From positions 1 to 35,544 of IMG/VR virus record IMGVR_UViG_3300021437_000060: DNA of 35,544 nucleotides. One strand, given 5' to 3'. Shown piece by piece: positions 16,567 to 19,790 of the stretch. The DNA is from a virus. The position numbers and the translations under genes are program-made. Under the pieces are notes generated by a model that was not told the DNA's origin, did no database searches, and was given only the letters and a program-made list of their open reading frames with translations. Positions within the stretch are counted from its first letter, which is position 1, and every line of letters starts with the position of its first letter.

Positions 16567-18936
16567 TTACTGTTCGACACCATTGTTCTCTTTGACCATA
16601 TCAAGGAGAACGCCTTGCATGGACTGCTTGGCTGCCAGTCGCTTATAAATTGTCCGTTCCATCGGTGTTCCTGCAATGTGCACAATCACCGTTTTCTTTG
16701 TCTGCCCCGGCCTGCGAACCCGGGCACAGGCCTGCTCGTACACTTCATTGCTATGCACCGGCGCATACCACACAATCGTTGTGGCTGCTGTGAGGGTTAA
16801 CCCGTGGCTCATGGTCTGTGCATTGGCCAGTAGCACCCTAGGTTCTGCCTGCTTTTGGAACTCACCGAAAATGCGGTCGCGTTCTGCTTTGCTGGTCTCG
16901 CCGTTCACAACCTCCACAGTGACATCCTTTTCCAATTCGGCCTTGATGGCGTTTAGCGCACCGGTCAAGGGGACAAATACTATCACCTTTCCTTCCGACT
17001 CTTCGATAATTTCCTTGACTAAATCGACTCGCGGCTTAGATGGAATTATTATGTTTTCGCCATTCGTTCCATACGCAACGCCACAATTGTGAACGATGGA
17101 CAATTCGCCGTTTGCTCCGCGCACAACAAACCGATTTCTTGGGCCACAGTCAACTAGATCATAGACATCCACGTACTGCGTGACCTTCGATTTTTTGCTT
17201 GCTCCGAAGCCGTCGCCCACCGGCAATTCTCCGGGCTGTATGGTCCGTCGTTGTCCCTGCGGTCTAAGGTCAACCCCGGTTTGTGAGTCTCCAGCATATC
17301 CTCTAAAAATAGGTAGAAGTCGGCCCACCGCGCGCACACTGTAATTCCACGCCCTCCATAATTTTCCCAGTCTTTGTGTAGTGGGTTTTCGCACCGTTGC
17401 CTCATCCCCGTCCATGTGTAGTACAGTGGGTGGTGTGTCAACCCATGGGTCTGGTTCCAAAGCCCGTGGCGGCATCCACAGTGCTTCCCGTTGGGGCGAT
17501 TGGTTTTCCGTAGGTTGTTCCCAATCCGCACAACTACGTTGCCGCAGTCGCATTGACACACCCACGTCGCTTGCTTTGTCGCTCCGCCCGTCACCCCACT
17601 CCGGGTAAGGACTGTTAGGAAGCCGAACTTTTGCCCTTGCAAGTCCTTTGCCCGTGTCACCATTTCGTATCTCCTTTGCTGGCACCCAGTGCCCCCCAGC
17701 GGAAAGCACCAAATGGTCTTCAGTTAGTCGAAGGCCGTTGCGTTGAATAGTATGTTGCGCACCCTTGCGGATTGCGCCTTTTGTATCTACCCACTCTAAA
17801 CCATCCCACACACGGTCAGTCGCGTTTACCTCTGCGATTTGCTTCCAACCCATGTCGGTAAGTACGTCGGTATTATACGCTAAACACGCGATCTGAATTA
17901 GCTTGTTGGCCTTGACAGCTTCGTTGACTGCGAGTATTTGGCCGCCTGCTGCTTCCGTGGACAGCTTGGACAGCATGTCTTTGTAAGCTTTGTCTTGCTC
18001 AGGAGTCAGTTGACACTCGCGGGTCAGCACAACTTGCTCGGGTAAGTCCACACAGTCATCCAGCGCGTACCGTATGGCAGGCTGCATGCAGCCAAACACT
18101 GTGTCATTTGCCGTGGGTCTGGCGATCCACTTGAAGGGTGTTAGCTGCCGCATCACGGAATCCTTGAACCGGCCGAAGTATTTGGGTACGTCGGGGTTGT
18201 CCGGGGTAATAAGGCGGCACTGTGCCCACGCGTCGGTAGGGGAGTTCGGCGTAGGTGAGCCAGTCATCCCCCACACTCTTCGGGGAGTTTGTCTGTTGCA
18301 GATTTCGTTTAGTAGCTTCCATCGTTCTGTTTGCGCGTTGCGCGCCATGGCCAACTCGTCGATAACGACGACGTTGATGTCTGGTCGTTTAGCTAGTTCC
18401 TTTGCGATGATGGAGATTCCATCGATGTTGATGATGTAAATGTCAGCGTCCTGCTTGAGCAGTTTGAGCCGTCGTTCACGAGACCCGTACAGTACCGTCG
18501 CATCCAGGTGAGGGAATGTCATGAACACCCCATCAGCCCAAGTGCGTTCCATGGTAGATAGCGGGCAGACAACCAGCATGCGCTTGGCCTGCTTCACGGA
18601 GCGGAGGTAGTCATACGCCCACAGCGCGGAATTCGTCTTGCCGGTGCCCATATCGTTAAGGCAGTAAGCCCGGTTGTTCATCGACAAGAAGGTCGCTGTG
18701 GTCTGCTGTACCTCGAACGGGTTGAACCGTCCGTTAGCCAGCGGGTAGGTGTAGTGCAACGGCATGGGGTCCGGCACAGCAAATCCCAAGTTGCGAAGCA
18801 CCCGTGTCTCGTCAGGCCGGTGGGGAAGCGCCACTACGTGGTCGCCCACCATGCGCGCCGTCGGTATCACCGTTGTAACCCTTGAGGGGTGCCGCAGCTT
18901 CATGACTACGGCTTTTTTCTTCTTGTGGATGTACAT
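16567..18936 (-). CDS. Snf2-type DNA helicase precursor interrupted by an intein, 789 aa
   Basis: The ATG at 18936 overlaps the stop of the upstream gene (TAATG), indicating coupled translation; a weaker in-frame ATG lies at 18903. N-extein residues 1-350 hold Walker A (MGTGKT, 96-101), motif II as DELA (193-196) rather than DEAH, and motif III TGSPTPN (225-231). An intein occupies residues 351-617. The C-extein (172 aa) starts at Cys618 and holds the second RecA lobe, with [14 protein letters not shown] (motif V) and [11 protein letters not shown] (motif VI, arginine finger). Splicing would rejoin LIQIA with CGVAYG and give a 522-aa helicase. The protein is a dsDNA translocase or helicase of phage replication, repair or recombination. 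Function before splicing is probably lost, because the intein separates the two ATPase lobes. Confidence 0.92.
17154..17663 (-). CDS. HNH homing-endonuclease-like protein, overprinted in the +1 frame of the intein, 169 aa
   Basis: The ATG at 17663 is preceded by a near-perfect SD (AAAGGAG, 7-base spacing). The protein is a typical free-standing phage HNH nuclease. It has an N-terminal FGFLTVL strand, a zinc-binding segment WVCQCDCGN...HCGC, the linker [19 protein letters not shown], then [22 protein letters not shown] and the core [19 protein letters not shown] with NRR near the end. This domain order recurs in phage HNH homing endonucleases. The gene lies entirely within intein codons 75-244 on the same strand but in the +1 frame. 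Its stop (TAG at 17154-17156) falls inside intein block F. It probably makes the double-strand break or nick that drives homing of the intein; its cut site is unknown. Confidence 0.9.
17671..17677 (-). promoter_or_regulatory. Shine-Dalgarno sequence of the overprinted HNH gene
   Basis: On the - strand AAAGGAG lies seven bases before the ATG at 17663. The same bases encode Ala-Lys-Glu of intein block B ([10 protein letters not shown]), so this ribosome binding site is also coding sequence for a conserved splicing-domain motif. It shows that the HNH frame can be translated on its own without frameshifting. Confidence 0.8.
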
Positions 18937-19229
18937 TATGGGAACAGCTTGTCAGCTATTTCATCGTAGTGTTGAAGGAAATACAAAGCCTTGCGGTGCA
19001 TGCATAAGTCCCGCACCAACAAAGATATTTGTTCTCTGGAATTGGCAGAATATTTAGCTTCCAGTGTACGCCGCAGCCCGGGTAATCGTTTCAGATGCCG
19101 CAGTTCTAGCACGCGAATGCGATTTTCTTGAACCCCAAACTCCACAGCTAAGTCTTTGCGCGTCTGCCCCATAGCAATCGCGTTGCATATGTACGCATCG
19201 CGCTCGTTCCCCCATATGTAAGAAGTCAT
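18936..19229 (-). CDS. Small protein with helix-turn-helix-like segment, 97 aa
   Basis: The start at 19229 overlaps the upstream stop by ATGA, and the stop overlaps the helicase start by TAATG, so it is translationally coupled on both sides. Residues about 20-50 (GQTRKDLAVEFGVQENRIRVLELRHLKRL) look like a DNA-binding helix-turn-helix. The rest is helical and charged. It could be a replication accessory or a regulator; I recognise no family. Confidence 0.7.
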   Translation of the reverse strand: MTSYIWGNERDAYICNAIAMGQTRKDLAVEFGVQENRIRVLELRHLKRLPGLRRTLEAKYSANSREQISLLVRDLCMHRKALYFLQHYDEIADKLFP

Positions 19230-19504
19230 TTCTTCTTGTCCACTGGCACCTTGTAGCCAGCCTCACCCTTGCGCCAGTCGCGGTTTGCCTTTGCGGGTTC
19301 CAGCTTGAGGTTGCTGGGCACTGTCTTGCCGCCGGCGCTGGCTGCCTTGATGTGGGCTATGTCAATGCCATCACCGATGGCCACCTTGCCGGCAGCGATT
19401 TCGTGGCGGCGTTCGCGCCGGCGTTCCACGCCCAGGGCTTTCTGCTCGGGGGTGGCGTTGTATGCTTTTTGAAACGCCAGTTTGGCGGGGGATGATTTAG
19501 GCAT
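19226..19504 (-). CDS. Small HNH-nuclease-like protein, 92 aa
   Basis: The start codon lies inside the 3' end of the VRR-NUC gene (8-base overlap) and the stop overlaps the next start by ATGA. The C-terminal half has the spacing of a compact HNH/beta-beta-alpha-metal core: DGIDIAHIKAASAGGKTVPSNLKL followed by KANRDWRKG, with His in AHI, Asn in SNL and Asn in ANR. The N-terminal half is a basic Arg-rich helix. Small HNH proteins are common in phages, where they nick DNA for packaging, recombination or homing. Here the neighbours are recombination and repair enzymes. Activity is inferred from the motif only. Confidence 0.6.
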   Translation of the reverse strand: MPKSSPAKLAFQKAYNATPEQKALGVERRRERRHEIAAGKVAIGDGIDIAHIKAASAGGKTVPSNLKLEPAKANRDWRKGEAGYKVPVDKKK

Positions 19505-19790
19505 TTGCTTTCTCTTTCAAAAAATCAATGAGTTGCTGAGCGTCATCGACAACGATGGCCCAAGCTCCGGCCGCAGCCATTTCACCAAGTACGCGATCTT
19601 GGTTTGCTGTGGTGTTGTTTCGCTTTCCTTTCGCCTTCACTTCTACACCGAGAAGCTGGCCGTTCTTGCAAGCCATTATATCGGGGATACCGTGCGTTGA
19701 AAAGGGTCCGGCTACAGCAATGTAGAACCACCAGCCTTCGGCCTTGAGTATCTTTTTGACCTTTTCCTTGATGGCTCCTTCGGGCGTCAT
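19497..19790 (-). CDS. VRR-NUC domain nuclease, 97 aa
   Basis: ATG at 19790, overlapping the upstream stop at 19787. The VRR-NUC (PD-(D/E)XK superfamily) core is visible: GIPDIMACKNGQLLGVEVKAKGK supplies the Asp and the E-x-K catalytic residues, followed by NTTANQDRVLGEMAAAGAWAIVV. Stand-alone viral VRR-NUC proteins are structure-selective nucleases, possibly Holliday-junction or flap cutting. It sits between a small HNH-like gene and the Cas4-like nuclease, next to the helicase, which fits a replication or recombination role. Confidence 0.8.
   Translation of the reverse strand: MTPEGAIKEKVKKILKAEGWWFYIAVAGPFSTHGIPDIMACKNGQLLGVEVKAKGKRNNTTANQDRVLGEMAAAGAWAIVVDDAQQLIDFLKEKANA

Follow-up and report, generated by a model that had tools for sequence, protein, structure and literature searches.

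Analysis of a 35,544-nucleotide stretch of viral DNA (the window) and of its relatives revealed inteins that hold a nuclease gene in another reading frame, and the relatives show that this out-of-frame arrangement is widespread and conserved in phage replication genes and mostly missed by annotation. In the window, the host gene encodes a helicase and the nested gene an HNH nuclease (Table 1). Taken as a whole, the locus is, with high probability, best explained by a nested-frame homing intein.

Table 1. Features of the helicase locus, in positions of the window.
Feature	Position	Strand	Basis
SNF2-type phage helicase gene with in-frame intein	16567..18936	(-)	ORF; 789 aa, 522 aa after splicing (predicted)
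Intein, 267 aa, 801 nt, Cys1 ... His-Asn, then extein Cys+1	17086..17886	(-)	Motifs, alignment of 28 relatives, PDB profile and fold matches, empty sites
N-terminal splicing half (blocks A, B), intein residues 1-72	17671..17886	(-)	pLDDT ≥90 in residues 1-70; blocks conserved
C-terminal splicing half (blocks F, G), intein residues 234-267	17086..17187	(-)	pLDDT ~93-96; VYDL...HN conserved
Nested HNH nuclease gene, 169 aa	17154..17663	(-)	ORF; phrog_374; purifying selection in relatives; AlphaFold pLDDT 83.6
Shine-Dalgarno AAGGAG	17671..17676	(-)	Sequence; 7 nt before HNH ATG (17661-17663), inside intein codons

The helicase intein and its nested HNH gene

The helicase was identified by matches to the Pfam SNF2 and Helicase_C families and to phrog_62, and the intein corresponds to residues 351-617 of its product. 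The positions of the intein and of the HNH ORF called in the original prediction proved correct to the base, and the intein is supported by motifs and by profile and fold matches. In an alignment of 28 such inteins, C1, N267 and the T55 and H58 of block B (TxxH) are invariant and H266 is nearly so, and Cys+1 is found in the window intein as well as in the nested members listed. Profile searches of the PDB matched the intein to NEQ068 (5oxw, E = 2.8e-6) and Mtu RecA (2in9, E = 9.6e-6). Alignments from which the phage-collection rows had been left out served as input for structure modelling; in the intein model, residues 1-70 and about 233-267 form a confident Hint domain, the blocks between the splicing halves have mean pLDDT values of 36-67, below 60 over most of the HNH overlap, and the top structural matches are inteins only. 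By its sequence and model the element is a real intein, with a predicted Hint fold. Neither the intein nor its HNH was recognised by Pfam or NCBIfam, and the intein protein alone, used as a query against viral contigs, gave nothing that was confirmed, the HNH being the workable bait.

Intein-free helicases, which the original prediction had proposed as a comparison, were found: in all 12 close helicase relatives aligned (71-87% identity) the exact site is uninterrupted and the residue at +1 is naturally a cysteine. No clear co-conversion signal was seen around the insertion site. A search of Rfam gave no intron family match up to E = 1, including the group I ribozyme core, and the sole sub-threshold match, to tmRNA, scored 16 bits where the gathering score is 84. 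In the family-A DNA polymerase of the same phage (21111-23072, minus strand), the polymerase insertion site (AGKIDEN / IVQALAR) is uninterrupted, and the gene is thus a possible target for the polymerase version of the intein. By eye only, an HNH-like stretch was also noticed in a small ORF at 19226-19504 (minus strand), which adjoins a VRR-NUC-like ORF (19497-19790).

The codons of the nested gene begin at the second base of the intein codons, the gene starting in intein codon 75 and ending in codon 244, and 510 of the 801 nt of the intein (64%) are read in both frames. Both the 169-aa HNH in a second frame and a dual-read share of more than 60 percent had been predicted. The nuclease matches the phrog_374 HNH endonuclease profile with an E value of 2.7e-59; its PDB profile match, to I-HmuI (1u3e), is weak (E = 0.079) and a Foldseek search with its structure model found nothing significant in the PDB, so that the HNH assignment rests on PHROGs. 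Over the HNH stretch the third frame of the same strand contains 10 stops and the intein frame none. The probability that the intein frame would be open by chance, estimated from 20,000 synonymous recodings of the HNH with local codon usage (mean 5.0 stops), was 0.003, in agreement with the original view that chance was an unlikely explanation.

Frame relation and probable separate translation among relatives

Viral contigs, bacterial genomes and phage records were searched for loci with a similar HNH. Of the 81 loci in an initial set, 26 were stop-free in the intein-offset frame and 55 contained 1-27 stops there. A set of 263 distinct HNH loci was classed by profiles of the intein N- and C-blocks, not by openness; as nested cases had supplied these profiles, highly divergent inteins could be missed. 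Among the matches listed, 50 of the 263 loci are flanked by intein blocks, and all 50 have zero intein-frame stops. Relatives with an in-frame nuclease, named in the original prediction as a case against it, were looked for among these and amount to 0 of 50; the offset is that of the window in 49 and the other one in a single locus (L019). Stops occur in the intein-offset frame in 212 of the 213 listed loci without intein blocks. Such counts describe the matches listed, with at least 50 intein-flanked HNH loci, and are not a measure of prevalence. Across the relatives, chance openness of the intein frame is excluded.

The inteins occupy several sites (insertion point marked by a slash), LQIS/CG and K/CLQ in helicases and LVEN/C, GGKL/CEN and GGK/CVEN in family-A polymerases. 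Members are found in the isolates APSE-1, APSE-2, Caulobacter RW and Shewanella SFCi1, and in bacterial genome contigs of Bacillota, Burkholderiales, Spirochaetes and Verrucomicrobia, which are probably prophages. Two contigs have nested-frame inteins in both polymerase and helicase (L007, 246-1145 and 3799-4707; L109, 685-1596 and 3769-4686). Among 102 HNHs placed in a tree, the 46 nested in the same offset fall into a single group that includes one free-standing member (SH-aLRT 90, not starred) and splits into a helicase group that includes the window (98, starred) and a polymerase group. The free-standing HNH of L099 (4004-4624), which has no intein blocks, is placed inside the nested clade with weak support, possibly as an escape from an intein or by tree error. 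The splicing blocks and the HNH co-diverge, with a Mantel r of 0.54 overall and 0.93 in helicases. In L012 and L019 (233-745), a polymerase intein has an HNH nested in the other offset, apparently of independent origin.

A second nuclease family is found in the same arrangement. The helicase of L004 (252-3602) contains two inteins, each of which hides a different and unrelated nuclease out of frame, an HNH and a DUF559 nuclease; the latter (ORF 985-1698, E = 1.4e-6) is nested in an intein of the DEAD/DEAH motif (DE/C) and has relatives in 40 phage records. In L004 and in all seven cultured-phage loci fetched (Pseudomonas MR14, Vibrio 159E43-1b, CP-T1, 1.194.O, 104E43.1 and K391, and Corynebacterium phi673), the DUF559 gene is out of frame, at the same offset, in a DE/C intein with an open host frame. 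Phage phi674 has been reported without the helicase intein of phi673 (PMC6132909). No reads accompany the window, which is a metagenomic virus record, but an assembly error or two compensating frameshifts, both looked for and not found, are hardly conceivable when the offset is shared with nearly all of the relatives, sequenced isolates included, and with a second nuclease family; an RNA intron mistaken for an intein is equally hard to credit given the intein motifs and fold and the empty Rfam search.

A Shine-Dalgarno match of at least 4 nt at proper spacing precedes 89% of nested HNH starts, compared with 15% of the start codons that occur in this offset in other parts of the host genes (p = 6e-27), and no clear match was seen at 6 of 47 nested starts. 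Based on these sites, separate translation of the nested HNH is likely. The original claim of a nuclease made separately that travels with the intein is upheld. In polymerase members (e.g. L053, L241 and L272), the Shine-Dalgarno sequence of the nested gene is often GAGGT, within the intein block B codons for the ...H/D-E-V-L motif. Programmed frameshifting, which would join the intein N-half to the HNH and make the nuclease as a fusion, could account for one fixed offset in nearly all members, but it is very improbable in view of the Shine-Dalgarno sites at nested starts and of the HNH frame, which stops within or just before the C-terminal splicing block, so that a fusion could not splice.

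Selection in the overlap and choice of offset

In close pairs, dN/dS was 0.09-0.19 for the HNH, 0.08-0.16 for the non-overlapped N-block of the intein, where measurable, and 0.84-2.6 for the intein frame over the overlap. The similarity of the intein frame over the overlap was reproduced, in 12 close pairs that are not all independent, by a simulation in which the observed HNH amino-acid changes were kept, silent changes were redistributed and stops were removed. The dN/dS values and the simulation thus indicate that the overlap is nuclease coding in one frame and a passive open linker in the other. Selection on both frames, as originally suggested with a dN/dS comparison as the check, was borne out for the nuclease frame, which is under purifying selection, and not for the intein frame, which over the overlap is a passive shadow of the HNH with only its freedom from stops kept. 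Full dual coding, in which the overlap residues of the intein frame would function in the intein and be selected as protein, as is the HNH, would fit two frames open over 170 codons and the overlap of both HNH ends with real splicing residues, but is highly unlikely because the intein-frame identity equals that simulated without protein constraint, the dN/dS is that given above and the overlap is disordered in the intein model. The same dN/dS values and simulated similarity led to the rejection of selection at the protein level on the overlap as read in the intein frame.

The freedom from stops can be followed at stop-making codons, the nuclease codons ending in T or C before AA, AG or GA, where a T creates a stop in the intein frame. 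In nested HNHs, none of the 853 such codons has T, against 43% of the remaining NNY codons; the corresponding figures are 0 of 65 and 57% in nested DUF559 genes, whereas free-standing HNHs have T at 43% of stop-making codons and 48% of the others; the zeros are partly by construction, because the nested set was picked by openness, and independent evidence for openness comes from the profile-based classification and the gap in stop counts.

In the prevailing offset, all stops of the intein frame take the form of NNT followed by AA, AG or GA. NNT and NNC are synonymous for every amino acid, and the change from NNT to NNC is therefore always silent, so that every intein-frame stop can be removed with no protein cost to the nuclease. 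In the other offset a stop is unavoidable wherever Met precedes Ile, Thr, Asn, Lys or Met. Such a pair is present in 44 of the 46 nested HNHs, and is missing from the single HNH nested in the other offset and likewise from the HNH of ShiLan, described below. This inferred genetic-code account fits the prevailing offset but does not by itself explain the absence of in-frame cases.

Of 46 HNHs compared, that of the window is the shortest (169 aa, against 179-251 for the others) and is without a C-terminal region of about 45-50 aa found in nested relatives, and this copy may consequently be altered or inactive. These features would suit a decaying passenger, an ORF that no longer gives an active nuclease in this phage while the intein persists by splicing alone. 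We regard this as unlikely, though worth weighing, since the catalytic region is intact in sequence, the Shine-Dalgarno sequence is of the strongest form observed, purifying selection acts on nested HNHs as a class, and the absence of the intein from close helicase relatives suggests a recent arrival.

Comparison with known systems and proposed mechanism

The original statement that no example had been described was too strong, as an out-of-frame HNH in a phage insert that is not an intein has been published, in mycobacteriophage methylases (Arsenault, Gosselin, Gogarten 2025, PMC11855218), and APSE-1 has overlapping polymerase and HNH annotations. The hidden HNH of the ShiLan type, outside any intein, is the closest published precedent, and it shares with the window an out-of-frame HNH, an insert open in the host-gene frame, sporadic presence and omission from annotation. 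However, no splicing domain was found in the ShiLan insert, which is thought to stay in the protein, whereas the host in the window is an intein; the ShiLan HNH has host-codon offset 2 and that of the window offset 1; and leaderless initiation was proposed for ShiLan, where no Shine-Dalgarno sequence was found (PMC11855218), whereas the window has one. The APSE-1 polymerase P45 and its overlapping HNH P46 (NC_000935), already annotated as two overlapping genes, are a member of the class, with the same offset and HNH family, although the host is a polymerase rather than a helicase and the P46 annotation is shorter than the full HNH; no paper explaining this arrangement was found in our literature search. 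A search for the arrangement in general found only ShiLan-type inserts and genome notes. PMC11855218 cites, for overlapping reading frames in actinophages, a preprint on actinobacteriophage inteins and 'non-canonical architecture' (Gosselin, Arsenault, Gogarten 2025, 10.1101/2025.01.02.630785) which may describe inteins of this kind and so bear on priority.

Large inteins with an in-frame LAGLIDADG or HNH endonuclease, such as those of mycobacteriophages (PMC5050341), likewise have splicing blocks around a nuclease-coding middle and insert in conserved motifs of replication proteins, but their nuclease is a domain of the intein protein and not a separate out-of-frame gene. The window and all 50 intein-flanked HNH relatives therefore fall outside the canonical large inteins, in which the endonuclease is in frame with the splicing blocks, and the 267-aa window intein with its nested nuclease gene falls outside the mini-inteins, which have no endonuclease between their halves. 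Group I introns with HNH ORFs are also splicing elements that carry their own nuclease gene, whereas splicing in the window is predicted at the protein level and no ribozyme was matched.

Under the nested-frame homing intein that we favour, a single helicase-frame polypeptide would comprise the helicase N-part, the intein and the helicase C-part. The two splicing halves would fold as a Hint domain around ~160 residues that are the out-of-frame reading of the nuclease gene and appear to have no detectable function beyond containing no stop, and the intein would excise itself to give the 522-aa helicase; motifs and fold argue for such protein splicing. The HNH is likely translated separately, with a Shine-Dalgarno sequence and start codon of its own that lie within the intein. 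Its targets would be helicase alleles that lack the intein, cut at the insertion site or close to it, and their repair would copy the whole intein with its nested gene. Sporadic presence, exact empty sites, co-divergence and what is known of the family point to homing of this kind. The probable origin of the arrangement is the entry into an intein of a free-standing HNH gene that had a start and a stop of its own.

On balance, and with moderate confidence in the whole, we propose that nested-frame homing inteins form an ancient and general class, for the most part unannotated, with no fewer than three origins (two for the HNH, one in each offset, and one for DUF559), that the prevailing offset follows from the genetic code, which in this offset allows the host-frame stops of any nuclease gene to be removed while its protein stays unchanged, and that nuclease dose and timing are uncoupled from splicing of the host protein. 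The endonuclease of an intein need not be a domain of the same protein, and one stretch of DNA can give a splicing element and a separate nuclease, an arrangement conserved in the polymerase and helicase genes of phages that infect many different hosts. Constraint on both proteins is not needed for a long overlap of genes to be stable, with one frame coding and the other only open, and the genetic code offers a reason for the frame used. We predict that a nuclease lies hidden in many of the large inteins for which none is recognised, and the cultured phages APSE, CP-T1, phi673, Caulobacter RW and Shewanella SFCi1 make the arrangement testable now.
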